Program-made: the position numbers and the translations under genes
The notes under the pieces: generated by a model
The model's database searches: none
What the model saw: only the letters and a program-made list of their open reading frames with translations
Told to the model about the DNA's origin: nothing
Shown: piece after piece, positions 3,427-21,433 of the stretch
Layout: the number at the start of each line of letters is the position of its first letter
How positions within the stretch are numbered: position 1 is the stretch's first letter
Assembly (NCBI RefSeq): GCF_036884845.1
Contig: NZ_CP145732.1
Location: 2,666,001 to 2,730,000, forward strand
Source of the DNA: Pseudomonas sp. MAG733B
GTDB taxonomy: Bacteria; Pseudomonadota; Gammaproteobacteria; Pseudomonadales; Pseudomonadaceae
DNA: 64,000 bases
Reading direction: 5' to 3'

Positions 3427-3429
3427 GGG

Positions 3430-3711
3430 TCAAGCCTCCAGATACTGGCGCCGCTCGTTTTTGCTGGCGAGGCGCGCTGAAATGATTCGAACGAAATTCG
3501 GGTCACGGTAGGTGTACGCGACGACCAGCAAACGCCCTTTGCCATCCAGCCCCAAGGTAATCCAGCGTTGTTCATCATGGTGATCGTCCTGAAAGGTCAG
3601 GGCGCGTTCGTCATGGAACACCGGTTCTGTCTCGGCGAAGCTGATCCCTTGGTGCTTGAGTTTGTTGGCTGCGTTCTTTGCCTTGTGATACTGAATTTCG
3701 AATGGCTTCAT
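3430..3711 (-). CDS. brnT: BrnT-family type II toxin (ribonuclease)
   Basis: A 93-residue protein with the BrnT signature: an N-terminal FEI.YHKAKNAANKLKHQGISF, then ERALTFQDD, RWITLGLDGKGRLLVVAYTYR and the C-terminal IRIISARLASKNERRQY (here VRIISARLASKNERRQY). BrnT has a RelE-like fold and cleaves RNA to stop translation until bound by BrnA. Length is normal and no frame damage is seen. First gene of a two-gene operon. The start has no good Shine-Dalgarno sequence; the region just upstream is a very AT-rich partial palindrome. Confidence 0.88.
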   Translation of the reverse strand: MKPFEIQYHKAKNAANKLKHQGISFAETEPVFHDERALTFQDDHHDEQRWITLGLDGKGRLLVVAYTYRDPNFVRIISARLASKNERRQYLEA

Positions 3712-3900: not shown

Positions 3901-3966
3901 CTATAGACATTTGTCCTGAGTCTTGCATACAGTGTGCGCATAACAAAAACCAGGGAACCCCCTAAC

Positions 3967-5552: not shown

Positions 5553-6785
5553 CTATTGTTCGCTTTGCGTCCAGCGCCCCATCAACGTGTTGGACGGCAG
5601 TTGTTCATCCAACAGCTTTCTCGCCGTTTCCACGCCAGCCACCGGCAGCCCTTCAGGGTTCAACAAGCCAATCTGCACCAGCACACTGGCCTGATCCCAG
5701 TAGATATGTTCGTGGTACAGCTTGTCCCCCCGGAACTTGATCACGCCCAGCATCGGAATCTCGACGTATTTTCCGGTGGGAGCGACGTTGGGCAGCATCC
5801 AGTCGATTTCGGTGCTGTGGGTGAAGCACATGATGAATTCGTCGACGATCTGCAATGCGCCGATGGTGCGCGAGATCGGGATGAGCTTCATGTCCGGCGG
5901 GTTGCCGTGGACGAAATGGTGTTGGTAGAAGCGGCTGAGTTGCTTGGCGCCGACGCCGCCGGTCATGGTGGGAATATGGTTGACGTAGGGCTCGGCGACC
6001 ATGGTCGCCATGGTGGCCGGTACGTCGCGGGTCTCGAACTCGTGGCGGATATGGTCTTCCCACAGGGCTGACAGGTTGAAGTGGGGGCCGATCTCGCGCT
6101 TGAGGGCGGCGATGCTGCGTTCATGGGCCATCAGCGAGGCCGGTTTGTCGTAGTGTGAACTCCCGGCCCGGGCGAAGGCGTGGTCGACGCCTGGGTACAC
6201 GTAGATTTCGGCCTTGTCGTTGCCGGCCAGGTGTTGGCTGATCTGGGCGCGGGCACTGGCGTCGCAGTAACCATCGTTTTCGGCAAAATGCAGGACCAGG
6301 CGGCCCTTGAGGTTTTCCGATTCGTGCAGCAAATGTTCGATGCCCATGCCGTAGTAGCCGACGGCGCAGGCCACATCGGTGCGCGTGGCGGTCAGCCAGG
6401 CCAGCTTGCCGCCCATGCAGAAGCCGACATAACCCAGGCCCGCGCCTTCGACTTCAGGCAGTGCACGCAGGGCGTTGAAACTGGCGTCGATATCAGTGAC
6501 GGCCTTGTCCACATCCAGGCGCTGGAACAGGTCGATGGCCGTCGCAAAATCGGCTTCGGTGTAGCCCAGATCAATGCCCGGCTGCAGGCGCCAGAACAGG
6601 TCAGGCACCAACGCCACATAGCCTTCCTCGGCATAGAAATCGGCCACGGCGCGCATGTTGGCGTTGATCCCGAAAATCTCCTGGCCGATCACTACCCCGG
6701 GGCCCTTGCCGCTGGCCGGCAGGGCCAGGTAACCGCTGAACGTGGCGTTGCTGTCCGTTGCCCGGATCTCAATCATCTTGCCCAT
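5553..6785 (-). CDS. Dienelactone hydrolase fused to an NTF2/SnoaL-like domain
   Basis: A 410-residue two-domain protein. Residues 1-235 are a dienelactone hydrolase: the triad Cys123 (GFCMGG), Asp171 (ENDGYCD) and His202 (GVDHAFA), plus Glu36 (QEIFG), falls at the same numbers as in classical ClcD/TcbE enzymes. Residues about 240-410 form a separate domain with aromatic-rich strands (NHIPTMTGG, YQHHFVHGN, VIKFRGDKLYHEHIYWDQ) resembling NTF2/SnoaL folds found in polyketide cyclases and ring-modifying enzymes. Normal dienelactone hydrolases are about 235 residues and hydrolyse enol-lactones of (chloro)catechol pathways. It is the last gene of the long minus-strand aromatic operon. GAGG lies 8 bases before the ATG. 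The substrate is unknown. Confidence 0.88.
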   Translation of the reverse strand: MGKMIEIRATDSNATFSGYLALPASGKGPGVVIGQEIFGINANMRAVADFYAEEGYVALVPDLFWRLQPGIDLGYTEADFATAIDLFQRLDVDKAVTDIDASFNALRALPEVEGAGLGYVGFCMGGKLAWLTATRTDVACAVGYYGMGIEHLLHESENLKGRLVLHFAENDGYCDASARAQISQHLAGNDKAEIYVYPGVDHAFARAGSSHYDKPASLMAHERSIAALKREIGPHFNLSALWEDHIRHEFETRDVPATMATMVAEPYVNHIPTMTGGVGAKQLSRFYQHHFVHGNPPDMKLIPISRTIGALQIVDEFIMCFTHSTEIDWMLPNVAPTGKYVEIPMLGVIKFRGDKLYHEHIYWDQASVLVQIGLLNPEGLPVAGVETARKLLDEQLPSNTLMGRWTQSEQ

Positions 6786-6812
6786 GTCATCTACCTCATT
6801 CGGTTATCAGAT

Positions 6813-7601
6813 TTATTGGCTGTCACGGTGTTGCTGGAACCACACCCGCGGCGACACACCGCGGTCTGGCCCGAGAATCGAAAAGCCGCCATCCACCGGC
6901 ACGTCGACACCGGTCATCCAGCCGGCACCGGCACTGCACAGAAACGCCACCACGCTGCCGACCTCATGGCCCCGGCCGATGCGCCCGAGCGGATGAAAAG
7001 GCGCCCCGACCCGATCGGCCAGCTGCGGATCGTTGTCGCTGAACTCGGCGACGCTGGGTGACCAGGTCCAGGCCGGGGAAACGCTCAGCACTCGGACTTG
7101 CGCCGGAGCCAGGGTCATGGCCAGGTTTTTCGTCAGTTGCAGGATGCCGGCCTTGGACGCAGGGTAGAGCGCGCGCCCGGCCGCACCGAATTTGCCGCCG
7201 GTACTGCCGATGTTGATCACCACGCCACCGCTGGGCAGATGCACGGCGGCCTTCTGGGTAAAGATCGCCGCCGATACCAGATTGACGTTGAGGGTCTTCA
7301 GCCACTGCGCGCGATCCGACGCCAGTCCCTGATCGGCGTACAGGCACGCGTTGTTGACCAGAATGTCGAGCCTGCCGAAGCGGGCCAGCGTGGCAGCAAT
7401 GCACGCGTCGATGTCTTCGTCGCGCTCCACATCGCAGGCGCAAAATCCGCAGTCCAGCGCTTGCGCCAACGCCTGGCCACTGTCGGCGTTGCGCCCCACC
7501 AGCATCACGCGGGCACCCTCAGCCAACAGCTGCCGAGCGATGTCCAGCCCCAGCCCTTGCGTGCTGCCAGTCACAATCGCCACTTTGCCTTCGAGCATCA
7601 T
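6813..7601 (-). CDS. Short-chain dehydrogenase/reductase (SDR)
   Basis: A 262-residue classical SDR: the cofactor motif TGSTQGLG at residues 11-18, CDVER after it, NNAC near 83-86 and the catalytic Ser133, Tyr146 and Lys150 (YPASK). The C-terminal DVPVDGGFSI is typical. Its ATG overlaps the stop of the preceding gene (ATGA) with GGAGG 7 bases upstream, so the two are translationally coupled. In an operon with a ring-hydroxylating dioxygenase, the usual role is NAD-dependent oxidation of a cis-dihydrodiol or a side-chain alcohol; this is inferred from context. The C-terminal tail is about 15 residues longer than in typical SDRs. Confidence 0.87.
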   Translation of the reverse strand: MMLEGKVAIVTGSTQGLGLDIARQLLAEGARVMLVGRNADSGQALAQALDCGFCACDVERDEDIDACIAATLARFGRLDILVNNACLYADQGLASDRAQWLKTLNVNLVSAAIFTQKAAVHLPSGGVVINIGSTGGKFGAAGRALYPASKAGILQLTKNLAMTLAPAQVRVLSVSPAWTWSPSVAEFSDNDPQLADRVGAPFHPLGRIGRGHEVGSVVAFLCSAGAGWMTGVDVPVDGGFSILGPDRGVSPRVWFQQHRDSQ

Positions 7602-8191
7602 GCCAAGTCCTCCAGAGCTTCGTTGACGTGACTGATACGGGCGATCAGCGCCATGCTCGCCAGCGAGGCCGCGTGTACGCCGCTGTCCGCGCTGGCGCAG
7701 GCATCGGCCGCAACCGTCACCTCGAAACCGCAATCCACCGCATGGCGCACGGTGCTTTCCACCACCGAATGAGTCGCTACGCCGGCGATCAACAAGTGCG
7801 AGGGATTGAATCGGCGCACCACGGTTTCCAGTGGTGAGCCATAAAACGCATTGATCCGGTTGTGGGTGACGACGAACTCGCGGCGGTTGTTCAGTGGCGT
7901 TAGGGCGCTGAAAAACTCCGCGCCCCAACTGCCTTCCCGGACCGCGCCAAGGGTGGCGACCGTGCGCAGGATCGGCGCGTTCTGGATCAGGTCGGCGTAG
8001 TCCGGTCGGAACGCCACTCGCACGTGGACGATCGGCCAGCCCTTGGCGCGTGCGCCGGCGAGCAATCGGCCGGCCGCATCAAGCAGCGCCGCACGCACGC
8101 TGTCATCAGCCCCCAGCCCGACCCGAATCTTGCCCTCGGGGTGCAACACGTCGTTCTGATAGTGCAGGGCGATCACCAGCGGCGTGTTCAT
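7598..8191 (-). CDS. Isochorismatase-fold protein lacking the usual catalytic triad
   Basis: A 197-residue cysteine-hydrolase/isochorismatase fold protein: VIALHYQNDV at the N-terminus, GAEFF, INAFYGSPLE and GVATHSVVESTVRHA. By eye alignment the three catalytic positions of the family are all changed: Asp is His10, Lys is His110 and the nucleophile Cys (GxATxxC) is Val143. Relatives are amidases (nicotinamidase, carbamoylsarcosine amidase) or vinyl-ether hydrolases. This one either uses a different chemistry or is a non-catalytic partner. The ATG at 8191 overlaps the beta-subunit stop; a GTG one codon earlier (8194) has slightly better spacing from GAGG. Confidence 0.82.
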   Translation of the reverse strand: MNTPLVIALHYQNDVLHPEGKIRVGLGADDSVRAALLDAAGRLLAGARAKGWPIVHVRVAFRPDYADLIQNAPILRTVATLGAVREGSWGAEFFSALTPLNNRREFVVTHNRINAFYGSPLETVVRRFNPSHLLIAGVATHSVVESTVRHAVDCGFEVTVAADACASADSGVHAASLASMALIARISHVNEALEDLA

Positions 8192-8724
8192 CACACGAAC
8201 ACCTCAAGGTTGGCGAACACATCGTTGCAGTTGATGAGGTCCACGCGCTTGAGCTGGATCTGCCAGCCACCACCCTCCTGAGCGGCCAACTTATAGGTGT
8301 AGCGACCGGCGAGCTGGCGTTGTTCCAGGCGCCATTCGCTGTACTGGAAGCTCGCGCTGATCACCAGCAAGCCCTGGGCGTCGAGACCTTCGACCATGAC
8401 GTTGCCGACCAGGTGCGCGGTTTGGGTCTGCGGTTGCTGCGACCAGTTGCGGGCGTTTTCCACCCGCCGGATCCGCACTTCGCGCAGCATGCGGTTTTCC
8501 CAGAACAGCGAGATATGGTCGAACGGGTTGGCTTGCTCGTGCTTGTGCGGCACCCAATACATGCCGGTGTCGGTGAACAGCTTGTCCCACTCCCAGAAAC
8601 GCCGCTCATCCAGCAGTCGCGCTTCCTGATAAAGAAACTGTTCGATCTGGCGCAGGGTCTCGGCTGGCACCTGAGCGGGTGTTAACTGGCGGGTGTCGAC
8701 GTCGATTCGGCGGTCAAGCAGCAT
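8191..8724 (-). CDS. Ring-hydroxylating dioxygenase, beta subunit (second system)
   Basis: A 177-residue small subunit of a Rieske non-heme iron dioxygenase (SnoaL/NTF2-like fold): IEQFLYQEARLLDERRFWEWDKLF, then YWVPHKH, RVENARNWS and the C-terminal KRVDLINCNDVF. It helps form an alpha3beta3 oxygenase and has no metal of its own. AAGGAGAG lies 6 bases before the chosen ATG, and its start overlaps the alpha-subunit stop by 11 bases. Only about a quarter similar to AntB in this same window by eye, so it belongs to a separate enzyme. Confidence 0.9.
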   Translation of the reverse strand: MLLDRRIDVDTRQLTPAQVPAETLRQIEQFLYQEARLLDERRFWEWDKLFTDTGMYWVPHKHEQANPFDHISLFWENRMLREVRIRRVENARNWSQQPQTQTAHLVGNVMVEGLDAQGLLVISASFQYSEWRLEQRQLAGRYTYKLAAQEGGGWQIQLKRVDLINCNDVFANLEVFV

Positions 8725-10045
8725 GGGTGCTCTCCTTGGCAATCAGGGTGGCAGTCATGAACTGTTTCCAGGCGGCGAACTGGTTGCGCATCGGCAGTTC
8801 GCTGGTGCCGTTGGTGGAGACTGCGCCGTCTTCCAGCGGCGTATCGGTGCCGGCGTAGCGGTGCATGCTGATCCACTCGCCACCGCGGGTCATGTTGCCT
8901 TCCTGACAGCGAGCATAGACTTCGACGTCGTCGGGCATCACGTTCGAGGAGGGCGAATTGATGACGTTGGCGTAAGTCAGTGCGCGGTCGAACACGGCAT
9001 CCGGAGCCCCCTTGCAGCGGAAGGTCTGGATCTCGACCATGGTCTGGTCCACGGCGATGGGGCGGATGACCCGGAATTGCATGAACACCGTGTGTGGCGA
9101 GCCGCTGCCGTAAATCACCGTGTTGTGGCGATTCATGCCCAGAATCTCCTTGGCACGCTGCTCGCCATAGGCCTGGCTCAGGCATTCGAAGTGGGCGCGG
9201 GAGACTTCGTCGCGCTCGGCGGCGGCCGGGTCGAAGATCGCTTCCATGTAGCCGTGGCCGTTGTGGTAAGCGCGCAGTTCGAGTTTTTCCCAGAAGTCGT
9301 AGGGTTCGCCGTTACCGTCCATGATCAGCAGTTCGAAGGGCATTTCACCGATGGCTTCGGCTTCGCCACGCGCCGCGTCAACCGACGATTCGTGGGTCAC
9401 GCGGGCGTGCATGGTGTCGTGCAGGTTCTCGTAGAACACTTTCCAGTTCGAGCGTTGCTGCACACGGAAGATGCCGCCGGCCACCTCGACCTCGCCGACC
9501 GGCGAGCGGTCACAGAGGTTGTCGATGGAGGTGATGACGCCGCCCAAAAATGTTTTCAGATCCGGTCCGAACGCCGCCTGGCTGGCGAACACGAAGCCGC
9601 GATAGGTCTCAACGCGGGCGACGCTGACCATGGAAAAATCCGGGTGCTTGGGGTCATAGCAAGTGCCTTCGAAACCGCTCTTGAGCGGCGCCGACAGATG
9701 CTGGCCGTCGAGTTTGAAGGTCCAGGCGTGGTACGGGCAGCGGAAGAACTTGCCGACACTGCCGTCACCGTCGGCCACCAGTTTGGCGCCTTTGTGCGGG
9801 CAGCGGTTGTACAGCACGCTGACCTGCTGGTTGGCGCCGCGCACCATGATCACGTCCTGATCGCCAATGCGCGTGGTGTGATAGTCGCCGGGGTTCTTCA
9901 CCTGGCTTTCATGGCCGACGTAGATCCAGGCGTTGCCGTAGATGCGCTCCATTTCCAGCTTGAACAGGGTCGGGTCGGTGTAGACGCTCTTGTGTACGCT
10001 GTCCTCGCGGATCAAGGCAGCGATTTGTTCGTTGGTCGGTATCAC
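8714..10045 (-). CDS. Ring-hydroxylating dioxygenase, alpha subunit (second system)
   Basis: A 443-residue Rieske oxygenase large subunit. The Rieske cluster ligands are Cys82/His84 (RCPHKG) and Cys103/His106 (CPYHAW). The mononuclear iron site shows the bridging Asp210 and His213/His218 (ENLHDTMHARVTH), with an acidic third ligand near MPDDVEVYARCQEG. It adds both atoms of O2 to an aromatic ring using electrons from the adjacent reductase. It starts at a GTG (10045) with GAGG 7 bases upstream; no ATG is suitable. It differs widely from AntA. In operon position, subunit set and SDR neighbour it resembles IacC/IacD-type and benzoate-type oxygenases. The substrate is unknown. Confidence 0.92.
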   Translation of the reverse strand: MIPTNEQIAALIREDSVHKSVYTDPTLFKLEMERIYGNAWIYVGHESQVKNPGDYHTTRIGDQDVIMVRGANQQVSVLYNRCPHKGAKLVADGDGSVGKFFRCPYHAWTFKLDGQHLSAPLKSGFEGTCYDPKHPDFSMVSVARVETYRGFVFASQAAFGPDLKTFLGGVITSIDNLCDRSPVGEVEVAGGIFRVQQRSNWKVFYENLHDTMHARVTHESSVDAARGEAEAIGEMPFELLIMDGNGEPYDFWEKLELRAYHNGHGYMEAIFDPAAAERDEVSRAHFECLSQAYGEQRAKEILGMNRHNTVIYGSGSPHTVFMQFRVIRPIAVDQTMVEIQTFRCKGAPDAVFDRALTYANVINSPSSNVMPDDVEVYARCQEGNMTRGGEWISMHRYAGTDTPLEDGAVSTNGTSELPMRNQFAAWKQFMTATLIAKESTHAA

Positions 10046-10062
10046 GGAATGTCCTCGGCTTG

Positions 10063-11007
10063 TCACAGATCGAGCACCAGCAGCGCGCTGCTGGCACGGG
10101 AGACACAGGTGCAGAAACTGCCGCTGGCGCGGTCGCGCTCCGACAGGCAGATGTCGCGGTGATCGGGCTGGCCGTCGATGACTTGGGCGACGCACACCCC
10201 GCAGTCACCCCGTCGGCAGTCGAACATCGGGTCCAGGCCGGCCTCGAGCATGGCCTCTAGCACGCTTTGCGCGGCGGCCACTTGCAGGTTCACGCCGCTT
10301 TCGCGCAGGTGCACCTCAAAGCCTTTGTCGCCAGCCACTTCCAGGGCGCCGCTGAACAGTTCGTAATGCAGGTGATCTTCTGCCCAACCCTGTTCGCGAG
10401 CGCAGGTCAGCACGCTGTTGAGCATGGCGGTCGGGCCGCAGATGTAGAGGTGCAGGCCGGGTCTTGGCGTGGCCAGGATCGCAGCGGCAGGAAAGCGTTT
10501 TTGCGGGTCGCCGCCGCTGATCCAGCAATGGTTGTCCAGGCAGGCGCGGGCCTCAGGCAGATAGGCCATCTGCGCTTCATCGCGACCGGCGTAGTGCAGG
10601 GTGAACGGCTTGCCCGCCGCGTGCAGCGACCGGGCCATGCCAAGCATCGGCGTGATGCCGATACCACCGGCGATCAGCAGGGCATGTTCGGTGTTTTCAC
10701 GCAGTGGAAAGTGGTTGCGTGGCGCATCGGCCAGCAGTTCATCGCCGACCTTGAGTGAGTGCACCCAGCGCGATCCACCGCTACTTGCTTCTTCTAGCTG
10801 GACGGCGATTTCGTAGTGTTCACTGTCGGGCAGGTTGACCAGCGAATAGGCCCGGCGTTGAGCGCGACTGCCGGGAACATGCAGCTCGAGATGGGCTCCG
10901 GCAGTGAAGTCCGGCAGTGGCTGGGCATCGCTGGACACCAGCAGCACGCGGCGGATTCTGGGGGTCAGAGGATCAATTTGTTGGACCCTGAGCGAGAGGC
11001 TGGACAT
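10063..11007 (-). CDS. PDR/VanB-family oxygenase reductase (flavin, NAD, C-terminal 2Fe-2S)
   Basis: A 314-residue class IA reductase: a flavin-binding domain with RAYSLVN (residues 52-58), an NAD domain with AGGIGITPM (113-121) and a C-terminal plant-type ferredoxin with Cys264, Cys269, Cys272 and a fourth Cys at 299 or 301. The order flavin-NAD-ferredoxin is that of phthalate dioxygenase reductase and VanB, and opposite to AntC nearby, which has its ferredoxin first. It passes electrons from NAD(P)H to the adjacent alpha-beta oxygenase. AGGA precedes the ATG at 11007; a TTG two codons upstream is less likely. The gap to the alpha gene is only 17 bases. Confidence 0.92.
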   Translation of the reverse strand: MSSLSLRVQQIDPLTPRIRRVLLVSSDAQPLPDFTAGAHLELHVPGSRAQRRAYSLVNLPDSEHYEIAVQLEEASSGGSRWVHSLKVGDELLADAPRNHFPLRENTEHALLIAGGIGITPMLGMARSLHAAGKPFTLHYAGRDEAQMAYLPEARACLDNHCWISGGDPQKRFPAAAILATPRPGLHLYICGPTAMLNSVLTCAREQGWAEDHLHYELFSGALEVAGDKGFEVHLRESGVNLQVAAAQSVLEAMLEAGLDPMFDCRRGDCGVCVAQVIDGQPDHRDICLSERDRASGSFCTCVSRASSALLVLDL

Positions 11008-11124
11008 ACGCAATTCCTGTCTGAATTCGTAGTCACTGTATGAAGCTTGAGAGGGTCAAAAAAGCCGCAAACGGCAAACCGGTATCCACTTCTGGCGAGA
11101 GTTATTTTTTAGCTGCGATGCGTG

Positions 11125-11922
11125 CTACTGGCGGTTCAGGTGCTCAAGCAAGGCCCCCACGTGTTCGCCATCAACCCTGGCCAGATCGTCCAGCACCGCG
11201 AAGTGATGACACCCGGCAAGCTCGACAAGGCTCACAGTCTGGCCGGCCTCAAGGCAGGCACTGGCGTAATCGCGCGAATGTCGTATCAACTCCGGCAATT
11301 CATCCCCGCCCACGGTCACCAGCAACGGTGCGCCATCGCCGATCAGCCTTTGCGGGCTAAAACGGCGGACCTCTTCTTCGCTCAGTTGCAGCTTGTCGTT
11401 GAGCCAGCAGCGGCTGATGGGTTCAAGCTCCATCAGGCCGCTGATCGGCATGGCCAGGGTCACCAGCGGATGCCGACGATACAGCGCGGTCAGGTGGCCA
11501 CCCGCCGAGTGCCCGCACAGCACCACCTGCTGACCAATGTTCAAGGCTTCGCGATGCGCCAAAAGATAGTCCAGTGCCTTGCCGATCTGGCCGACGATGG
11601 TGCTCATGCTCGCTTCGGGTGCGAGGGTGTATTCCAGCAAACCGACATTGAACCCTGCCTCAATCAAGCCCTCGGCGATAAAGGCGTAGTCGTCCTTGTC
11701 CGAGGCTTGCCAGTAACCGCCATGAATGAACAGCAGTGTTGGCGCCCCGGCATTCGCCTGGGCATACCAGTCGAAACGCTCGCGCATGGCATTGCCATAC
11801 GGCACATCACGCTGCCAGGCGTGGCTCGCATAAGTCTCGGCGCTGCGCTGGCGAAAACGTTGCATGATCTGCGGAAAATTACCCACGGCGGCGACGTTGT
11901 TATAAGCCTGATCGAGGTCCAT
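11125..11922 (-). CDS. Alpha/beta hydrolase, kynurenine-formamidase-like
   Basis: A 265-residue alpha/beta hydrolase with the oxyanion motif HGGYW at 67-71, nucleophile Ser139 in GHSAGG, acid Asp207 (GGDELPE) and base His240 (CHHF). HGGYW together with PISGLMELEPI is characteristic of arylformamidases of the kynurenine-formamidase (BNA7/AFMID) type, not of bacterial KynB. Such enzymes cleave N-formyl groups from aromatic amines. Next to antABC, a deformylase giving free anthranilate from N-formylanthranilate or a related amide is plausible, but that is inference. It sits between the ABC importer genes and the second oxygenase. Confidence 0.85.
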   Translation of the reverse strand: MDLDQAYNNVAAVGNFPQIMQRFRQRSAETYASHAWQRDVPYGNAMRERFDWYAQANAGAPTLLFIHGGYWQASDKDDYAFIAEGLIEAGFNVGLLEYTLAPEASMSTIVGQIGKALDYLLAHREALNIGQQVVLCGHSAGGHLTALYRRHPLVTLAMPISGLMELEPISRCWLNDKLQLSEEEVRRFSPQRLIGDGAPLLVTVGGDELPELIRHSRDYASACLEAGQTVSLVELAGCHHFAVLDDLARVDGEHVGALLEHLNRQ

Positions 11923-11928
11923 GGCTGC

Positions 11929-12615
11929 TCACACTCCCAGGTAGCGTTGCGACAATTCGGGTTGGGCCGCCAGCTCCTGCGGTGTGCCATCCCAGACCTG
12001 TCGACCCTTCTCGATGATGTGATGGCGGTCGACCACCCGCGCCATTTCCTTGAGGTTTTTATCGATCACCAGAATCGTCTCGCCCTCGGCCTTGAGGGTG
12101 GCCAGGCAACTCCAGATCTGCTCGCGAATGATCGGCGCCAAACCTTCAGTGGCTTCATCGAGAATCAGCAGGCTGGGGTTGGTCAGCAGTGCGCGGCCGA
12201 CCACCAGCATCTGCTGTTCACCACCCGACAGCGTGCGTGACAGTTGGTCCTGACGCTCCAGCAGGCGCGGGAACAGTTCATAGACCCGCACCAGGTCCCA
12301 TTTGCCCCGCGTGGCGGTGGCCAGCAGATTTTCCCGCACGCTCAAGGTGCCGAAGGTGCGGCGGCCTTCCGGCACAAGACCAAGGCCAGCCTTGGCGATG
12401 CGATAGGGCGCGGCACCGCGCATTTCCGTGCCGTTGATACGGATGCTGCCGGCACTGGGCTTGAGCAATCCCATGATCGATTTGACCGTGGTGGTCTTGC
12501 CCATGCCGTTGCGGCCGATCAGCGACACCACTTGGCCCTGCTCGATGCTCAGGTGCATGTCGAACAACACCTGGCTCAAGCCATAACCCGCTTTCAAACC
12601 CTGAACTTCAAGCAT
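11929..12615 (-). CDS. HAAT-family ABC transporter ATP-binding protein (LivF-type)
   Basis: A 228-residue ATPase: Walker A GRNGMGKTT, the signature LSGGEQQ, Walker B LLILDEATEGLAP and the switch His region. The sequence pattern of the ATEGLAP segment marks the LivF branch of branched-chain amino acid/amide-type importers. It overlaps livG-like upstream by 8 bases. With four partners it forms a full importer that energises uptake across the inner membrane. Confidence 0.92.
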   Translation of the reverse strand: MLEVQGLKAGYGLSQVLFDMHLSIEQGQVVSLIGRNGMGKTTTVKSIMGLLKPSAGSIRINGTEMRGAAPYRIAKAGLGLVPEGRRTFGTLSVRENLLATATRGKWDLVRVYELFPRLLERQDQLSRTLSGGEQQMLVVGRALLTNPSLLILDEATEGLAPIIREQIWSCLATLKAEGETILVIDKNLKEMARVVDRHHIIEKGRQVWDGTPQELAAQPELSQRYLGV

Positions 12616-13357
12616 GTTCTTCTCCCAGGTAAGCGGCCCGTACTTGCGGGTCGTTGCGCACTTGTTCGACGCTGCCGGTCAGTACTGTCTGGCCGTACAC
12701 CAGCACCGTGATGCGGTCGGCGAGGGCGAATACCGCATCCATGTCGTGCTCGACCAGCAGGATTGCGTAGCGGCCCTTGAGGCTGTGCAGCAGCTCGGTC
12801 ATGCGCGCGGATTCGTCGGCCCCCATACCGGCCATCGGCTCATCGAGCAACAGCACCGACGCTTCCTGGGCCAGCGCCAGGGCAATCTCCAGTTGCCGCC
12901 GTTCGCCGTGGGACAGCGCCTGCACCGAGTCTTGCGCGCGAAGGCCCAGGCCCACCTGCTGCAAGTAGCCCCGTGCCGGTTCCAGCAGGCGGGTGTCGCG
13001 GCTCAACGGGCGCCACATGCCGAATGCCTTGCCCTCGCGGGCGGCAATGGCCAGGGCGACGTTCTCCAGCAGGGTGAACTCGGTGTAAAGCTGGCTGACC
13101 TGGAAAGCCCGCGCCAGCCCCAGGCGCGGACGCTGCCAGGCCGGCACGCGGGTGATGTCCTGGCCGTTGAGATGGATTTGGCCCTGGTCGGGGAAAATTT
13201 CGCCGGCAATCTGCGCGATCAAAGTGGACTTGCCGGCGCCGTTGGGGCCGATGATGGCGTGCAGTTCGCCCTTGAGCAGTTCAAGGCTGGCGCCGTTGGT
13301 GGCTTTCACGGCACCGAAGGCTTTGTGCAGATCACGAATCGACAGTTGTGCGCTCAT
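12608..13357 (-). CDS. HAAT-family ABC transporter ATP-binding protein (LivG-type)
   Basis: A 249-residue ATPase with Walker A GPNGAGKST, signature LSHGERRQLE, and Walker B VLLLDEPMAGMG as in LivG/UrtD-type subunits. Its ATG at 13357 overlaps the stop of the permease gene (ATGA), which fixes the start; longer upstream extensions read through the permease gene in another frame. Partner of the LivF-type ATPase directly downstream. Confidence 0.92.
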   Translation of the reverse strand: MSAQLSIRDLHKAFGAVKATNGASLELLKGELHAIIGPNGAGKSTLIAQIAGEIFPDQGQIHLNGQDITRVPAWQRPRLGLARAFQVSQLYTEFTLLENVALAIAAREGKAFGMWRPLSRDTRLLEPARGYLQQVGLGLRAQDSVQALSHGERRQLEIALALAQEASVLLLDEPMAGMGADESARMTELLHSLKGRYAILLVEHDMDAVFALADRITVLVYGQTVLTGSVEQVRNDPQVRAAYLGEEHA

Positions 13358-14370
13358 GGGCGTGCCTCCACGGCGGCGTTCGGTTTGACGGCAACCACCT
13401 TCGGCTTGCGCTGCAACAGGCTCAGCAGCAAACCGTAAACGCCTTTCTTGCCGAACAGCACCACCAGCAACAGCAATGGCCCGAAGATCAGCATCCAGTG
13501 CTCGGTCCACTGGCTCAGCACCTGTTCAAGACCCAGGTAGGTAGCGGCGCCCAGCAGAGGGCCGAGCAGGGTGCCGACGCCACCGAGAATCACCATCGCC
13601 ATCAACTCGCCGGACTTGTGCCAGGCGCCCATGTCGGGGCTGACGAACAACGCGTAGTTGGCCCACAGAATCCCCGCCAGGCCACCGCCGGTGCCGGCGA
13701 TCACAAACGCCGTCAGGCGATAGCGCAAGGGTTTTAGGCCCAGGCTGACGGTGCGCTGCTCGCTCTGCTTGAGCCCGCGCAAGACAAAACCAAAATGCGA
13801 ATTGACCAGTCGCCGACACAGCAGCAACCAGCCGGCCAGCAAGGCCACGCACAGGTAGTAGAAGTGGTTGGCCTCAGCCAGATCCAGTGCGCCGAGGGTA
13901 TTGCGCTCGTTGAGCAGAATGCCGTCGTCGCCGCCGTACAACGACAGCGAGCCGAGCACGAAATAAAGCATCTGGCCGAACGCCAGGGTGATCATGATGA
14001 ACTGCACGCCGCTGGTGCGCAGCGACAGATAACCCACCAGCAGCGAGAACAGTGCGCACACCATCAGGGCCAGCGGCCACACCACCAGCGCACTGTTGCT
14101 GCCTTCCCAGCCCCACAACGGCAGGCCTTGGGACGTGTGAAAGGCAATGACGCCGACGATGTAACCGCCCAGGCCGAAGAACGCGGCATGGCCGAAGCTG
14201 ACCATGGCGCCGTAGCCGATCAGCAAGTCCAGGCTGATGGCCGCCATGCCGTAGATTGCGAGGCGGGTGAAGAAACTGACCAGGTAAGGCTCGTGCAGCC
14301 AGTGGGCCAGCAGCGGCATGCAGGCGAAGGTCGCCAGGCACGCAAGGTCAATGATGAGGCGTGGTGACAT
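13354..14370 (-). CDS. HAAT-family ABC transporter permease (LivM-type)
   Basis: A 338-residue membrane protein with about 9-10 hydrophobic segments: LDLLIGYGAMVSFGHAAFFGLGGY near residue 50, LSLRTSGVQFIMITLAFGQM and AMVILGGVGTLLGPLLGAATY, all hallmarks of LivM. It forms the translocation channel with the LivH-type subunit. The C-terminus is basic and cytoplasmic. Confidence 0.92.
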   Translation of the reverse strand: MSPRLIIDLACLATFACMPLLAHWLHEPYLVSFFTRLAIYGMAAISLDLLIGYGAMVSFGHAAFFGLGGYIVGVIAFHTSQGLPLWGWEGSNSALVVWPLALMVCALFSLLVGYLSLRTSGVQFIMITLAFGQMLYFVLGSLSLYGGDDGILLNERNTLGALDLAEANHFYYLCVALLAGWLLLCRRLVNSHFGFVLRGLKQSEQRTVSLGLKPLRYRLTAFVIAGTGGGLAGILWANYALFVSPDMGAWHKSGELMAMVILGGVGTLLGPLLGAATYLGLEQVLSQWTEHWMLIFGPLLLLVVLFGKKGVYGLLLSLLQRKPKVVAVKPNAAVEARP

Positions 14371-14380
14371 AGCGTTCTCC

Positions 14381-15292
14381 TCAGGCGCGGGCCGGCAGCA
14401 GGCCGCGCGGGCGCACCAGCAGCACCAGGGCCATGACGATGTAGGCGCTGGCGGAAATCAGCCCGGCGCTCAGGGTGCCGCTGGTTTCGCTGGGCAACAG
14501 TTGGTCCAGCAGCGGCGGAATGTAGGCACGACCGAGGCTATCAACCATGCCGATCAGCAAGGCCCCCACCAACGCACCGCGCACCGAGCCGACACCGCCG
14601 ACGACGATGACCACGAAGGTGGTGATCAGGATCTTCTCGCCCATGCCTATTTCCACCGACAGCAGCGGTGCGGCCATGAAACCGGCCAGGCCGCACAGCA
14701 CGCAGCCGAATACGAACACCAGGGTGTACAGCCGGGCGATGTTGACGCCCAGGGCGCCGACCATTTCGTGATCGTCGGCACCGGCGCGAATCAACATGCC
14801 CAAGCGTGTGTGGTTGATCAGCAGCCACATGCCGACCGCCACGATCAGTCCGGCGGCGATGAACAGCAGCCGGCTGACCGGGTACATCAATCCCGGCAGC
14901 ACTTCGACGAAACTGGAATACCACTCGGGCGTGGGCATCGCTGGTGGGCTGCGGCCGAAGATCAGGGTCAGCAATTCGTTGCTGAAAAACACCACGGCCA
15001 ATGTCGCCAGCACCTGATCCAAATGATCGCGATTGTAGAGGCGGCGCATGATCGAGGTTTCGATCAGCGCGCCGTAACAGGCCGAGCCGATCAGCGCGGC
15101 CAGGCCGCCAAGCCAGAACGAACCGGTGGCCATGGCGGTATAGGCGGCGCAGAAAGCCCCGACCATGTAAAAGGCGCCGTGGGCCAGGTTGATCACGCCC
15201 ATAATGCCGAAAATCAGGGTCAGGCCTGAGGCCAGCAGAAACAGCAAGGCGCTGTATTGCAGGCCGTTGAGAATCTGTTCGAGCAATAGCAT
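14381..15292 (-). CDS. HAAT-family ABC transporter permease (LivH-type)
   Basis: A 303-residue membrane protein: MLLLEQILNGLQYSALLFLLASGL at the N-terminus, GVINLAHGAFYMVGAF, and FVVIVVGGVGSVRGALVGALLIG near the C-terminus, as in LivH. The ATG at 15292 has GAGG 9 bases upstream; an ATG five codons earlier (15307) lacks this. Ends 10 bases before the LivM-type gene. Confidence 0.92.
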   Translation of the reverse strand: MLLLEQILNGLQYSALLFLLASGLTLIFGIMGVINLAHGAFYMVGAFCAAYTAMATGSFWLGGLAALIGSACYGALIETSIMRRLYNRDHLDQVLATLAVVFFSNELLTLIFGRSPPAMPTPEWYSSFVEVLPGLMYPVSRLLFIAAGLIVAVGMWLLINHTRLGMLIRAGADDHEMVGALGVNIARLYTLVFVFGCVLCGLAGFMAAPLLSVEIGMGEKILITTFVVIVVGGVGSVRGALVGALLIGMVDSLGRAYIPPLLDQLLPSETSGTLSAGLISASAYIVMALVLLVRPRGLLPARA

Positions 15293-15358
15293 TGCTGCGT
15301 TCCTCATGAAAACGCCCCGCAGTTGTGCTGCAGGGCGAGGACGGGAGTCAGGTGCCGG

Positions 15359-16519
15359 TCAGATCGCGCATTGAGCGGCGTAGCTGTCGACGTGGCGGGT
15401 CGCCAGGGTCTTGATCGGCACTTCGATCAGCTTGCCGTCGGCGCCGGCCTGCACTTGCAGCAGGTACCAGTCGATCACCGGGTGTTGGTTCTGGGCGAAG
15501 CTGAAGTCACCGCGAATGGAATCGAACTTGACGTTCTTCATCGCCGACCGGAAGGCTGGCTGGTCTTTGAGATTGCCCTGGGAGGTTTTCAGGGCGGCGC
15601 CGATCAGCCGGGCCGTGTCGTAAGTCTGGGCGGCATACACCGTCGGCACGCGCTTGTATTTCTCGGTGAACGCCTTGACGAAGGCCTGGTTGGCCGGGTT
15701 GTCCGATTGCGGGTTCCACAGGGTGACGATGTTGGTGCCCTTGGCCACGTCGCCGGTGGCGGCGAGCATGCGTTCATCCATGGAGAACACCGGCACCACC
15801 ATCGGGATTTGCGCTGACAGGCCCGAGCCGCCGTATTGCTTGGCGAAGTTGATGCCGCCACCGCCCGGGTGAAACTGGAAGATCGCATCCGGCGCCAGCG
15901 CACGCACGCGCGCCAATTCCACCGAGAAATCCAGCTGGTTGAGCTTGGTGTAGATCTCGGTCACTTCGCCCTTGAAGGTGCGCTTGAAGCCGGCCAGTGC
16001 ATCGCGGCCGCCCTGATAGTTGGGCGCCAGGATCACCATCTTCTTGTAGCCCAGTTCATTGGCGGCGACACCGGCCATTTCGTGCGGGGTGTCGTTCTGG
16101 TAGGAGCCGACGAAGTAGTTGGCCATGCACTTTTCACCGGCAAGGGTCGACGGCGCGGTGTTGTTGCTGACGTAGAAACCGTCCTTGGTGGCGGTGTTGA
16201 TCACGGCCGCCAGCACGTTGGAAAAAATCACCCCGGTGTACAGCGAGATGCCGTCAAGGCTCATGCGGTCGGCGATCTGCTTGGCCTTGGCCGGTTGCAG
16301 GCCATCATCTTCGACGATGAGTTGCACCGGCACGCCGCCGAGCTTGCCGCCTTCCTGATCGATCGCCAGCTGAAAGCCATCTCGCGAGTCTTCGCCCAGG
16401 TAGCCGGCGGGGGTGGAGAGGGTGGTGATGAAACCGATTCGGACAGGCTCCACGGCCTGGGCAGCCGTCGCTGCGCAGAGGGAGGTTGCCAGACATGCAC
16501 GCAATACCAGGTTTTTCAT
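15359..16519 (-). CDS. Periplasmic substrate-binding protein of the HAAT importer
   Basis: A 386-residue exported protein with a Sec signal peptide (MKNLVLRACLATSLCAATAAQA, cleavage before VEPVRIG). The mature part has the type I periplasmic-binding/receptor ligand-binding fold (GFITTLSTPAGYLGEDSRDGFQLAI, IFSNVLAAVINTA, GYKKMVILAPNYQGGRDAL, YAAQTYDTARLIGAAL). Homologues in aromatic catabolic clusters bind benzoate-like acids, whereas LivJ binds leucine; placement between antABC and oxygenase genes argues for an aromatic ligand. It lies first among the transporter genes, with about 100 bases between it and antC. Confidence 0.9.
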   Translation of the reverse strand: MKNLVLRACLATSLCAATAAQAVEPVRIGFITTLSTPAGYLGEDSRDGFQLAIDQEGGKLGGVPVQLIVEDDGLQPAKAKQIADRMSLDGISLYTGVIFSNVLAAVINTATKDGFYVSNNTAPSTLAGEKCMANYFVGSYQNDTPHEMAGVAANELGYKKMVILAPNYQGGRDALAGFKRTFKGEVTEIYTKLNQLDFSVELARVRALAPDAIFQFHPGGGGINFAKQYGGSGLSAQIPMVVPVFSMDERMLAATGDVAKGTNIVTLWNPQSDNPANQAFVKAFTEKYKRVPTVYAAQTYDTARLIGAALKTSQGNLKDQPAFRSAMKNVKFDSIRGDFSFAQNQHPVIDWYLLQVQAGADGKLIEVPIKTLATRHVDSYAAQCAI

Positions 16520-16623
16520 GAGGCGGCCTATGAAGTAGGTCGTGCCAACGCACGGTAGATGTCGATGAGGGCAGTGATTCAGTGTTCGGTCGGGCCGATT
16601 GATTGTTGTTATGGGTCGCTGTG

Positions 16624-17646
16624 TCAGCTGTTGCTCTCGGTGAACTTCTCCAGGTAAAGGCGGCTTTGATCCAGGCCTTGCTGCTGACGCCAGTCCTTGA
16701 TCGACTCGACCATCGGCGGCGGGCCGCACAGGTACAGGTCGAACGGCTGGTCACGCAGCTCGGCCAACTCCAGATGTTCGGCGATGTAGCCGGTCTTGCC
16801 CGGCCAGTCGGGGTTGGGGTTGCTGACCACGGGCGTGAATCGGAACCCCGGGACCCTGGCGGCATAGGCCTCGATGCGTGAGATCTCGCACAAATCCTCG
16901 GCCTCGCGCACGCCGTAGTAGAGGTGTACCGGGTGACCGCAGCCTTGCTGCTCGGCGATTTGATCGAGCATGCCGAGGAACGCCGACAGCCCGGTGCCGC
17001 CGGCCACCATCACCAGCGGGCGGTCGATATGGCGCAAGTAAAAGGCACCCAGTGGCGCTTCCATGTGAATCACGTCACCGACCTGGCAGCGATCGCGCAC
17101 GTAGTCGGTCATCACGCCGCTGGGCAGCAGGCGAATGAGGAACTGCAGGTTGCTGCTGCCCGGTGCGCAGGCAAAGGAATACGAGCGCCGATGTTCGGTA
17201 CCGGGTACTTGCAGGCGTGCGTACTGGCCCGGCAGATAGTCCAGCGCCGCACCCGCAGCGCCGACTTCCACGTGCACGATGGCGGTGGTCGGGGAGACCT
17301 GGCGCACCTCGCTTACGGTGCCTTGCAAGCTGCTCGGGCCGTTGCTGCCGCAGAGGCTGGAATCGAAGTCGAAGTAGAACGCGGCATCCGACTGCACCCG
17401 CGTCTGGCAGCTCAGCACCTTGCGTTCAGCCAGGTCGCAGGCCGACAGCGCTTCATCGTCCACGTAGTCCTGGGTGTATTGCCCGGATTCACAGCGGCCC
17501 TGGCAGGTCGCGCAAACCCCTTCGCGACAGTCCAACGGAATCTTGATCCCGCTGCGCAGGGCCGCGTCGAGCAGGATTTCATTGTTCTGCACGTTGCAGA
17601 AGAGTGTTTTGCCGTCGGCGAAACTGAAGGCGACCTTGTACGTCAT
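16624..17646 (-). CDS. antC: Anthranilate 1,2-dioxygenase electron transfer component (reductase)
   Basis: A 340-residue reductase with an N-terminal 2Fe-2S domain (Cys40, Cys45, Cys48, Cys80; LDCREGVCATCQGRCESG), then an FAD domain with RRSYSFA and an NAD domain with AGGTGLSAFLGML and CGPPPMVESIKDW. Domain order and sequence (MTYKVAFSFADGKTL, DAAFYFDFDSSLC) match AntC/BenC closely. It carries electrons from NADH to AntAB. Start chosen at 17646, where the ferredoxin domain begins; 20 bases follow the end of antB. Confidence 0.94.
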   Translation of the reverse strand: MTYKVAFSFADGKTLFCNVQNNEILLDAALRSGIKIPLDCREGVCATCQGRCESGQYTQDYVDDEALSACDLAERKVLSCQTRVQSDAAFYFDFDSSLCGSNGPSSLQGTVSEVRQVSPTTAIVHVEVGAAGAALDYLPGQYARLQVPGTEHRRSYSFACAPGSSNLQFLIRLLPSGVMTDYVRDRCQVGDVIHMEAPLGAFYLRHIDRPLVMVAGGTGLSAFLGMLDQIAEQQGCGHPVHLYYGVREAEDLCEISRIEAYAARVPGFRFTPVVSNPNPDWPGKTGYIAEHLELAELRDQPFDLYLCGPPPMVESIKDWRQQQGLDQSRLYLEKFTESNS

Positions 17647-17665
17647 GAGCGTTAATCCGCAGGGT

Positions 17666-18157
17666 TCAGAGATGGTAGAAATCGAGTACGGAGTTGATCG
17701 TGTCGTTGAGCAGCACCACGTGCTTGCGGGCGATCTTCCAACTCTCGCCGTCGGGGCGCAGGCGGTAGGTGGCGCGGCCGAAGAATTGCTCGGCGGTCTG
17801 CATGCGGTAATACAGGGTGCTCCAGTTGACGCGCACCTCCAGCTCATCGTCTTGCAGCGGCGCGATGCGCACGTTGCTGATCAGATGCAAGGTGCGCGGC
17901 ATCGGAATGGTCGACGCGGCCTTGCCGGTGCGAATGCGGAACACCCGGTCTTCCAGGCCGCCCCGGTTGGGGTAATAGATCAGCGACATGCCTTTTTTTG
18001 GGTCGGTGGTGTAGACGTGCTCCGAATCCCATTGCGGCAGATGGAATTCGCTGTCGTCGCTGAACATGTCCAGGTAGGTGTCCCAGTCCTGGGCATCGCA
18101 GGCCTCGGCGTTGCGGTAAAGAAATTGCTCGATGCGGTATTGCAGTTGCGAATTCAT
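17666..18157 (-). CDS. antB: Anthranilate 1,2-dioxygenase small (beta) subunit
   Basis: A 163-residue small oxygenase subunit (MNSQLQYRIEQFLYRNAEACDAQDWDTYL... as key start, then HVYTTDPKKGMSLIYYPNRGGLEDRVFRI). It pairs with AntA. The ATG at 18157 has GAGG 7 bases upstream; a GTG two codons earlier overlaps the antA stop. Length and sequence fit AntB. Confidence 0.93.
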   Translation of the reverse strand: MNSQLQYRIEQFLYRNAEACDAQDWDTYLDMFSDDSEFHLPQWDSEHVYTTDPKKGMSLIYYPNRGGLEDRVFRIRTGKAASTIPMPRTLHLISNVRIAPLQDDELEVRVNWSTLYYRMQTAEQFFGRATYRLRPDGESWKIARKHVVLLNDTINSVLDFYHL

Positions 18158-18159
18158 GT

Positions 18160-19563
18160 TCACACCTCACGCAGTTTCAACGGTTGTTGTTCGGCCGCCT
18201 TGCGCGCCAGGCCTTCGAGCAAAAAGCGCTGCCAGTTGGCGTGCTGGTTGACGTACAGGCCTTCATGGGTGAACTCGGTGCCGGTCAGTGCCGGCGCGAT
18301 GCCAATGGCTTCGCTGTTGCGGGTGGCGCCTTTGACCCACTTGCCTTCGCCACGGGAAATATCGCTCCAGCGTTCCAGGCGGGCCTGGAAGCCACGTTGG
18401 GCTTCACGAAATTCCACCAGGTCATCCGGGGTGCCCATGCCAGACACGTTGAAGAAGTCTTCGAATTGGCGAATGCGGTTTTCCCGATCGGCATCCGACT
18501 CGCCGACCACGCCCAGGCAGAAGCTGTTGATCTCGGTTTTGTTCCAGGCCAGCGGGCGGATGATCCGCAGTTGCGAGCTGATCTGGTCGAGGAAGAACAT
18601 GCTCGGGTAGACGTTCAGGTTGCGCAGGCGATGCATCATCCACTCGGCCTTGCCCTGGCCGTGTTCCTTGACCAGGCGTGGCATGATGCTGGCGTAGCCG
18701 GGGCGCACGGCCGGGTTCGGCATGTCGCTGAACAGCACGCTGTGGCCGTTGTGGAACGCGAACCAGCCGTCGTCGGTTTCCTTGTCGCCGGCCCCCAGCT
18801 TGCTGTAGTCCAGGGTGTCGCCGGCGCTCAGGCCTTTTTCGGCGTTGACCTGCTGGCGGTGCTGCACGGTGGCCACGTAGTTGTAGTGGACAGTGCTGAC
18901 GTGATAACCGTCCAGGCCGTTCTCGTTCTGCAATTTCCAGTTGCCGTCGTAGGTGTAGGTCGACTTGCCCGGCAGCACTTCGAGCTGACCGGTAGGCGAC
19001 TGCGCCACCATCATGTCGAAGAACACTTTGGCGTCACCGAGGAAGTCTTCCAGGGTGTCGGTGCCCTCCACATTGAGGCTGACGAACACAAAGCCGTTGT
19101 AGCTTTCGATGCGGGCCTTTTTCAGGCCACGGGTGGCCTTGTCGAAGCCTTCGGAGTATTCGCCCGGCGCCTTGACCTTCACCAGTCGGCCGTCGCTTTT
19201 GTAGCACCAGGCGTGGAAGGGGCAGGTGAAGGTCGACTGATTGCCCTTGCCAACGCGGGTGAGGGTGGTGCCGCGGTGCTGGCAGGCGTTGATCAGTGCG
19301 TTGAGACGACCTTCACCGTCGCGGGTGATGATCAATGGTTGGCGTCCGGCGCGCATCGTCATGAAGTCGTGATTATTGGCGATCTCGCTTTCGTGGCAGG
19401 CGTAGATCCAGTTCTTCTCGAAAATCAGTTCCATTTCCAGATCGAACAATTCCGGGTCGGTAAACATGTCGCGGGCAATACGATAAACACCGTCTTCCGG
19501 GCGGAAGTCCAGGCAACTTTCTATATAACTTTTCCACTGTTCGACACTTCGTGCGGTTGTCAT
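18160..19563 (-). CDS. antA: Anthranilate 1,2-dioxygenase large (alpha) subunit
   Basis: A 467-residue Rieske oxygenase that converts anthranilate to catechol with loss of CO2 and ammonia. Rieske ligands are Cys94/His96 (ACQHRG) and Cys114/His117 (CPFHAWC); the iron site has Asp218, His221 and His226 (NGLDGYHVSTVHYNY). It starts MTTARSVEQWKSYIE as known AntA proteins do; the ATG at 19563 has GAGG 8 bases upstream. First gene of the minus-strand run that continues to 5553. The catechol product needs ortho-cleavage genes that are not in this window. Confidence 0.95.
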   Translation of the reverse strand: MTTARSVEQWKSYIESCLDFRPEDGVYRIARDMFTDPELFDLEMELIFEKNWIYACHESEIANNHDFMTMRAGRQPLIITRDGEGRLNALINACQHRGTTLTRVGKGNQSTFTCPFHAWCYKSDGRLVKVKAPGEYSEGFDKATRGLKKARIESYNGFVFVSLNVEGTDTLEDFLGDAKVFFDMMVAQSPTGQLEVLPGKSTYTYDGNWKLQNENGLDGYHVSTVHYNYVATVQHRQQVNAEKGLSAGDTLDYSKLGAGDKETDDGWFAFHNGHSVLFSDMPNPAVRPGYASIMPRLVKEHGQGKAEWMMHRLRNLNVYPSMFFLDQISSQLRIIRPLAWNKTEINSFCLGVVGESDADRENRIRQFEDFFNVSGMGTPDDLVEFREAQRGFQARLERWSDISRGEGKWVKGATRNSEAIGIAPALTGTEFTHEGLYVNQHANWQRFLLEGLARKAAEQQPLKLREV

Positions 19564-21241: not shown

Positions 21242-21433
21242 TGCTGATCATGACCGGCACCGTTGCTGTGCGTGCCAACGCCGCACAGCGCGTTCGATAT
21301 CCAGATAGTTTCCGATTACTAGCCAAAAAATGCGGATATCGCCTGTTCGCACCGGCTGGGCATAGCCCTTGCAAACGTAATGAGAATACGCGCCGAAGAG
21401 CGTGTCGATGTCCATTGCCGTGGGTGTACTGAG

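Follow-up and report, generated by a model that had tools for sequence, protein, structure and literature searches.

Bacterial degradation of indole-3-acetic acid (IAA) proceeds by the iac and iad routes, and that of indole by iif. According to PMC10374108 and PMC12633357, IadDE oxidises IAA and the iad pathway ends in anthranilate; IadF, IadG and IadH remove the acetyl chain and IadI acts downstream of a compound C8H7NO2 (PMC12633357). The iad regulator is described as MarR type in PMC9613470. As described in PMC12538310 and PMC7225977, IifB and IifA convert indole diol to anthranilate by way of 3-hydroxyindolin-2-one (dioxindole), and a SnoaL-fold domain lies at the C-terminus of IifA. Here we describe a run of 15 genes in a 64,000-nucleotide stretch of the Pseudomonas sp. 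MAG733B chromosome (NZ_CP145732.1, positions 2,666,001 to 2,730,000; hereafter the window). The run joins anthranilate dioxygenase (antABC), an ABC importer and a hydrolase to a core module of six genes, encoding a reductase, the alpha and beta subunits of a Rieske oxygenase, an isochorismatase-fold protein, a short-chain dehydrogenase/reductase (SDR) and a fusion of a dienelactone hydrolase (DLH) with a SnoaL-like domain. We estimate at about 50% the probability that this module converts an indole-type acid through dioxindole to anthranilate. It is predicted to be a third bacterial route of indole-acid degradation, besides those for IAA (iac/iad) and indole (iif).

The locus shares with iad (Variovorax paradoxus CL14/CL014, nine genes iadC to iadK2) a homologous Rieske alpha, beta and reductase, a dehydrogenase after the oxygenase, an ABC binding protein and a route expected to end in anthranilate. 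It differs from iad in that its alpha lies outside the iad/iac clade with F251 and K322 of IadD replaced, the AMP-forming acyl-CoA ligase (IadF), thiolase (IadG) and cyclase-family IadI are missing, and AraC regulators, the isochorismatase-fold protein and the DLH fusion are present. With iif/ind and the WHOP island (ipoABC, dhoAB, antABC, catBCA) it has in common the SDR and DLH-SnoaL lower half, an AraC regulator and nearby ant genes, which lay within the stretch in 7/10 iif-type loci fetched. However, iif starts with a styrene-monooxygenase-type (SMO-type) flavin oxygenase and a flavin reductase (IifC/IifD); neither was found in the window, which has instead a Rieske system, an isochorismatase-fold partner and an ABC importer. 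The iac cluster of Pseudomonas putida 1290 has a homologous Rieske alpha/beta, reductase and SDR, but iac-range alphas nest inside the iad rows of our tree whilst the window alpha falls outside. The Pseudomonas antABC operon is complete in the window and is followed here by the importer, the hydrolase and the module. PMC8383072 gives the name 'iad' to a Pseudomonas cluster whose gene order it compares to that of iac, so that cluster is not the module. Filing the window cluster as iac or iad was rejected, as clade, pocket and gene content all fail. It would rather work like a hybrid of an iad upper half and an iif lower half, as a member of neither. A first-pass annotation had compared the run with iac; the homology stands, but iad and iif are the better comparisons. 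No description of the gene set or its chemistry was found in a literature search whose scope excluded subscription papers and supplements.

The Rieske oxygenase and its pocket

Compared with all solved chains, the window alpha is nearest to Variovorax IadD (9o71, 7yls and 8h2t; E about 1e-111), the next match being at 8e-39. The first-pass annotation would have been refuted by a closely related oxygenase acting on a compound that has nothing to do with anthranilate; the nearest characterised relative is IadDE, whose pathway from IAA ends in anthranilate, so this check came out in favour of the annotation. In a 48-row tree, the 26 core rows lie on one side of a branch with support of 91/86 and the 21 iad- and iac-range rows group together (96/95), iac nested inside iad; the single antA outgroup sits on a very long branch, leaving the root unsure. 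On this tree the window oxygenase falls in neither the iad nor the iac clade and is sister to IadD plus IacC. Other Rieske matches in the window genome reach at most 32%, and it has no iad-range alpha.

The residues of the IAA pocket of IadD, as listed in PMC10374108, were placed by alignment on the core alphas and counted over 78 distinct sequences. All 78 retain N210, L211, H311, R329 and Y362 of the pocket and the iron ligands H216, H221 and D377 (IadD numbering). In all 78, F251 is replaced by N245, which has Gly on both sides, and K322 by H318. Phe and Lys are retained at these two places in 15/15 iad-range and 6/6 iac-range alphas. The L211 place varies (6 Leu, 8 Gln and 1 Ile in the iad range, 6 Gln in the iac range), and the H311 place is Gln once among the iad- and iac-range alphas. 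Five further alphas, from a 60-62% branch in Variovorax, carry the core-type F251/K322 switch. These results suggest that the core alpha has an indole-type pocket with altered side-chain recognition.

The module could be a shortened iad that degrades IAA, with the isochorismatase-fold protein, SDR and DLH fusion replacing IadF, IadG and IadH in acetyl removal. It would fit this that the closest solved relative is an IAA oxygenase, that most pocket residues are kept and that the window genome lacks an iad-range alpha. Yet two printed IAA-pocket residues are changed in every core alpha, and in 20/21 non-Pseudomonas genomes a core alpha (70-82%) coexists with an iad-range alpha (40-46%), several of these iad-range alphas being read with a stop within the aligned part. 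In Pseudomonas, one genome (G049) encodes both the module and an iac-range alpha. IAA thus appears an unlikely substrate.

Other genomes also combine the module with known indole routes. Eight iad-range loci were fetched, with an adjacent AMP ligase (62-69%) in all eight and a thiolase in seven. Each of 38 Variovorax-group genomes with a core-type alpha showed at least one further, weaker match among the matches listed. The family background for iad co-occurrence comprised 23 genomes around one genome (G400) and a single genome around another (G318). Paenalcaligenes hominis has the module at one locus (L163) and, elsewhere (L213), an iad cluster that continues into genes for an iif-type SDR and an SMO-type oxygenase. 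Because the same genomes hold iad, iac or iif, a module that only repeated the breakdown of IAA or indole would bring them little, and such redundancy is unlikely; this is an argument and not proof, iad being common in these genera. A likely dioxindole consumer, either the DLH fusion or an iad-range alpha, is present in 35/36 core-bearing genomes. The exception is Polaromonas sp. P2-4 (G587, locus L130), in which both the module alpha and the DLH fusion are broken into two frames.

The lower half and the proposed pathway

The window DLH fusion appears to match the iif/WHOP enzyme that converts dioxindole to anthranilate. In a Pfam scan its second half was unmatched, but this half is SnoaL-like via homologues, several of which at 78-83% identity carry precomputed PF12680. 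A structure model of the fusion is of too low confidence in its second half to be of use. We fetched 14 loci for DLH-fusion homologues outside the module. In ten (L086-L095; 61-69%) the fusion always stands beside an SDR, an SMO-type oxygenase and a flavin reductase, which is the iif/WHOP type; these loci were identified from gene content and not from a published IifA sequence. The other four (L082-L085; 71-84% to the window fusion) are without an SMO-type oxygenase. In L082 the fusion, 84% identical to that of the window, lies beside ketosynthase, ApeP-like dehydratase and FAD monooxygenase genes and not the module. The window SDR matches the SDRs of the ten iif-type loci at 43-48%, versus 24-34% for iad-locus SDRs, a comparison that demonstrates homology, not orthology. 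A 43% match in the iad-locus comparison (L213) is an iif-type SDR.

Plain indole would be the substrate if a Rieske indole dioxygenase had taken the place of the iif flavin oxygenase, with IifB- and IifA-like enzymes finishing the route. The iif-like SDR and DLH fusion agree with this, and dioxindole would then be reached without side-chain removal. However, the module has a porin and an ABC importer with its binding protein for neighbours, 2/15 module-bearing Pseudomonas genomes (G092 and G181) carry iif as well, and the isochorismatase-fold protein, not seen in iif-type loci, would be idle. We therefore consider indole quite improbable.

In the isochorismatase family, Asp, Lys and Cys fill the catalytic roles. 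This triad is absent from the module protein, in which the aligned places are H10, H110 and V143, and H10 and H110 are invariant (46/46). It is perhaps not a cysteine hydrolase, and perhaps a histidine acid-base or metal lyase. We tentatively propose, at clearly less than even odds, that this triad-less protein with its gained conserved His is a new lyase or decarboxylase turning a 3-hydroxy-2-oxindole acid into dioxindole, within a third indole-acid route opened by a distinct Rieske clade.

From the gene content, homologies, clade, pocket and triad substitutions, recurrence and upstream repeat observed in these loci, we infer a substrate and a series of reactions. The acid would enter via the OprD porin and ABC importer. 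The reductase and the alpha/beta oxygenase would then oxidise the indole ring at C2-C3, in the manner of IadCDE acting on IAA. The SDR would oxidise the 2,3-diol to a 3-hydroxy-2-oxindole, a reaction comparable to that of IifB on indole diol and of IadJ on the hydrated product of IAA. Loss of the carboxyl, perhaps aided by the isochorismatase-fold protein, would give dioxindole, which the DLH-SnoaL fusion would convert to anthranilate as IifA does. AntABC would finally yield catechol, for which there is a likely outlet, since four intradiol-dioxygenase N-domain (PF04444) matches lie above cut-off on the window chromosome, a contig of 6.65 Mb. The first-pass annotation had proposed an imported N-aromatic compound, for example an indole, oxidised to anthranilate and then catechol. 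Homology, through the IadDE relative and the iif/WHOP-type DLH fusion, is what supports that proposal, with an indole as the probable compound.

The leading guess for the acid is indole-3-carboxylate, since an acid suits the importer and an indole ring suits the oxygenase. Its carboxyl could leave as CO2 after C2 oxidation, giving dioxindole usable by the DLH fusion or by IadI; we take the C8H7NO2 of the iad pathway to be dioxindole, from its formula. BenD-type oxidative decarboxylation couples dehydrogenation of benzoate dihydrodiol with loss of CO2. That indole-3-carboxylate itself is the substrate is possible but doubtful. CoA-dependent acetyl removal as in iad is excluded, because neither the two AMP ligase queries nor the two thiolase queries had a tblastn match in the window at 1e-5. 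The SMO and flavin reductase queries were also without a match in the window, and the SMO query had none in the whole genome in a search with no positive control. Another N-aromatic compound ending in anthranilate (indole-3-lactate or -pyruvate, a quinolone or an N-acyl anthranilate) would suit an ABC importer and alpha/beta hydrolase that fit many acids, and sequence fixes no substrate. Such compounds are nonetheless improbable, the oxygenase, SDR and DLH fusion all indicating indole-ring chemistry.

Recurrence, arrangement and upstream repeat

A core-type alpha (at least 84% identity) was found in 15/199 Pseudomonas genomes, the window's own included, one genome carrying it twice. In all 15 fetched copies besides that of the window, the six core genes are complete and stand in window order. 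The 15-gene layout is more than chance, since other Pseudomonas genomes repeat it. Searching named genomes with the isochorismatase-fold family gave 136 relatives, and 80 loci were kept (34 Pseudomonas and 46 other genera), including 26 Achromobacter and 3 Alcaligenes loci. The alpha is present in 78/80, the exceptions being cut at a contig end (L133) or having a split alpha (L130), and the SDR in 79/80 (all save L173). Achromobacter, Alcaligenes, Variovorax and further bacteria have the alpha, beta, isochorismatase-fold protein and SDR as well; the module has relatives in other bacteria from soil and plants. The DLH fusion occurs in 34/34 Pseudomonas and 27/46 other-genus loci. Outside Pseudomonas, a binding protein is found in 43/46 loci and a homologue of the second AraC-family regulator (AraC2; at least 30% identity) in 42/46. 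In the Variovorax group a core-type alpha was found in 38/101 genomes, at 73-82% in 7 and at 60-63% in 31. A class-wide draw gave three other genomes with a 43-50% alpha, two of which have an AMP ligase and a thiolase beside it.

Ant genes or antR lie near the module in 31/34 Pseudomonas loci, the other three stretches ending at a contig end, and beside it in 0/46 loci outside the genus. Co-occurrence of the blocks with antABC is hence not universal. Within the genus three arrangements were seen. Arrangement A is the window type (antR-OprD-antABC-importer-hydrolase-module) and is that of L032-L036; as far as they are visible, L096-L106 and L108 also fit it, L100 without the hydrolase. In arrangement B the module is followed by AraC2, antR and OprD on the opposite strand and then antABC (e.g. 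L109, L111, L113-L119), with a binding protein after antABC where the stretch reaches. In arrangement C, found in 6/6 named loci (L122, L123, L125, L126, L134 and L137), antR comes first and then antABC, with the module starting within about 120 bp after it, and an aldehyde dehydrogenase comes next; this enzyme would suit indole-3-carbaldehyde feeding in. Pseudomonas sp. Root562 has the module twice, in arrangements A (L098) and C (L137).

A conserved 33-bp direct repeat precedes the module. XylS-type sites have the form TGCA-N6-GGNTA. The repeat lies 83 bp upstream of the reductase gene in 13/13 loci L096-L108, and L107 keeps this spacing though a divergent antR, and not the hydrolase, stands upstream. 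It was found 109-113 bp upstream of the reductase in 13 arrangement B loci, with a pattern loosened after arrangement B had been seen, and in no arrangement C locus; L110 and L133 are cut. The loose pattern had 177 background matches in 1.5 Mb. At that rate chance would account for 3 to 4 of the 37 loci that have an upstream match, and most of the 11 matches outside Pseudomonas should be regarded as unreliable. In ten arrangement A loci the last ~95 bp before the reductase are conserved and the outer part of the gap is variable. In L032, L034, L035, L036 and L102 the conserved promoter-like block is preceded by short extragenic repeats (ctgtaggagcgag...gctcgcg), which the window lacks. Scans for sigma-70 promoters and terminators gave no more matches than in shuffles. 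In arrangements A and B a separate promoter probably drives the module, which may share that of antABC in arrangement C.

The window run consists of 15 open frames on the minus strand, from 19563 down to 5553, with intergenic gaps in transcription order of 2, 19, 104, 51, 10, -7, -8, 6, 111, 17, -17, -1, -4 and 27 bp, some gene starts being uncertain by a few codons. The first-pass annotation had described a same-strand run of 15 genes with gaps of about 120 bases or less, which agrees with the widest gaps of 104 and 111 bp. It had judged one or two transcripts likely. Since a regulatory-like repeat is conserved before the reductase gene, there are likely at least two. This repeat would also fit antABC with the importer and the six-gene module being separate operons with unrelated substrates, neighbours by chance, as would the absence of antABC near the module in all 46 non-Pseudomonas loci and of an AntA above cut-off in 21 genomes. 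Against such a coincidence, which we consider very unlikely, are the ant genes or antR retained near the module across three arrangements in Pseudomonas, one of them apparently a single antABC-module run.

Several observations weigh against an indole-to-anthranilate route. The two pocket changes may affect substrate choice in ways other than predicted, and the F251/N245 column adjoins an alignment gap. As iad-range alphas are common in module-bearing genera (some match in 91/101 Variovorax-group genomes), the arguments from co-occurrence and from dioxindole consumers may reflect lineage alone. The module is patchy, a core-type alpha being found in 0/368 genomes besides the window's own in the class-wide draw of 369. 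A nearby reductase at 40% identity or more occurs in only 5/46 non-Pseudomonas loci, and the importer was not seen within the fetched stretch of the six arrangement C loci. The lower half of the pathway is not fixed, since the DLH fusion was not found at E 1e-60 in 10/21 non-Pseudomonas genomes and the AntA cut-off was reached in 0/21, six of which have a weaker match. Finally, the role given to the isochorismatase-fold protein is a guess, and the decarboxylation might need no enzyme.

Features of the window and wider meaning

Several components named by the first-pass annotation were recovered by model searches (Table 1): a complete antABC, with AntA and AntC above curated cut-offs and AntB between them, the five-part importer, and an alpha/beta/reductase oxygenase with isochorismatase-fold, SDR and DLH-domain partners. 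Its 'arylformamidase-like' hydrolase is better described as BD-FAE/Abhydrolase_3. The best solved relative of this protein is 'Lipase 1' (9n8r, E 6e-81), and the far weaker match to 4e11 (E 2e-17) led us to reject a kynurenine formamidase. IadI was rejected too, as no BLASTP match at 1e-3 was found among the open reading frames of the compared iad loci; the three candidate IadI proteins scanned in iad loci are PF04199, and none of the 15 window genes is. A hydrolase homologue is present in 12/34 Pseudomonas loci and 0/46 loci of other genera. The hydrolase and importer are accessory parts. Comparing the window binding protein with IadK2 proved unusable, the Variovorax binding protein found misfitting the printed IadK2 residues.

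Table 1. Features of the 15-gene run and its divergent neighbours, in window coordinates.
Feature	Position	Strand	Basis
Second AraC-family regulator (AraC2)	22449..23444	+	PF14525, PF12833
AraC-family regulator, antR by position	21380..22447	+	PF14525, PF12833; AndR model 133 bits, under cut-off 350
OprD-family porin, divergent from antA	19924..21174	+	PF03573
antA, anthranilate 1,2-dioxygenase alpha	18160..19563	-	TIGR03228 942 bits vs NCBIfam cut-off 672
antB, anthranilate dioxygenase beta (ring-hydroxylating beta subunit)	17666..18157	-	PF00866; sits between antA and antC
antC, reductase	16624..17646	-	NF008822 596 bits vs cut-off 402
ABC importer substrate-binding protein (Peripla_BP_6)	15359..16519	-	PF13458; nearest solved chains 4zpj, 4evq, E about 1e-43
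ABC permease, LivH type (BPD_transp_2)	14381..15307	-	PF02653
ABC permease, LivM type (BPD_transp_2)	13354..14370	-	PF02653
ABC ATPase, LivG type	12608..13357	-	PF00005, PF12399
ABC ATPase, LivF type	11929..12615	-	PF00005
Alpha/beta hydrolase (BD-FAE/Abhydrolase_3), accessory, not IadI homologue	11125..11922	-	PF20434/PF07859
Conserved AraC/XylS-type direct repeat before core module (GCCAGAAGTGGATACCGGTTTGCCGTTTGCGGC)	11064..11096	-	0-5 mismatches in 13/13 loci L096-L108
Core: oxygenase reductase, IadC-like	10063..11013	-	Fer2, NAD_binding_1; 40-46% to reductases of eight iad loci
Core: Rieske oxygenase alpha, sister clade of IadD/IacC	8714..10045	-	9o71/7yls E about 1e-111; tree; pocket GNG244-246, H318
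Core: oxygenase beta, start uncertain	8191..8724	-	PF00866; 35-41% to betas beside iad-range alphas
Core: isochorismatase-fold protein without catalytic triad	7598..8191	-	Isochorismatase fold confirmed
Core: SDR dehydrogenase	6813..7601	-	PF13561; homology to SDRs of iif-type loci
Core: DLH-SnoaL fusion, IifA/DhoA-like	5553..6785	-	PF01738; 61-69% to fusions of ten iif-type loci

Beyond the run, a xanthine-type NCS2 permease gene (3934-5484, plus strand) converges on the end of the module and is retained there in most arrangement A loci. An N-hydroxyarylamine O-acetyltransferase-like gene (2210-3034, plus strand; NF011621 200 bits, below the cut-off of 493) possibly encodes an enzyme acetylating anthranilate-type amines, and a BrnT/BrnA toxin-antitoxin pair (3103-3711, minus strand) lies between the acetyltransferase and permease genes. 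In Alcaligenes and Paenalcaligenes, a CrtI/amine-oxidase-like FAD oxidoreductase gene directly follows the SDR (L169 11527-13116 and L163 11392-12969), from which no clue to the substrate was gained. A permease in L041 was considered as a hint of tryptophan and set aside, as it matches Pfam Trp_Tyr_perm but the NCBIfam model over cut-off is a serine/threonine transporter. One Variovorax-group genome has an MbnB/TglH-type RiPP enzyme gene near the module (L237 6015-6857).

If the proposed route is true, a third oxygenase clade would extend the range of plant indoles open to removal by the root microbiome. It would also be a warning against naming each IadDE-like gene an IAA degrader, and would bring to light an isochorismatase-fold protein that may do new chemistry.

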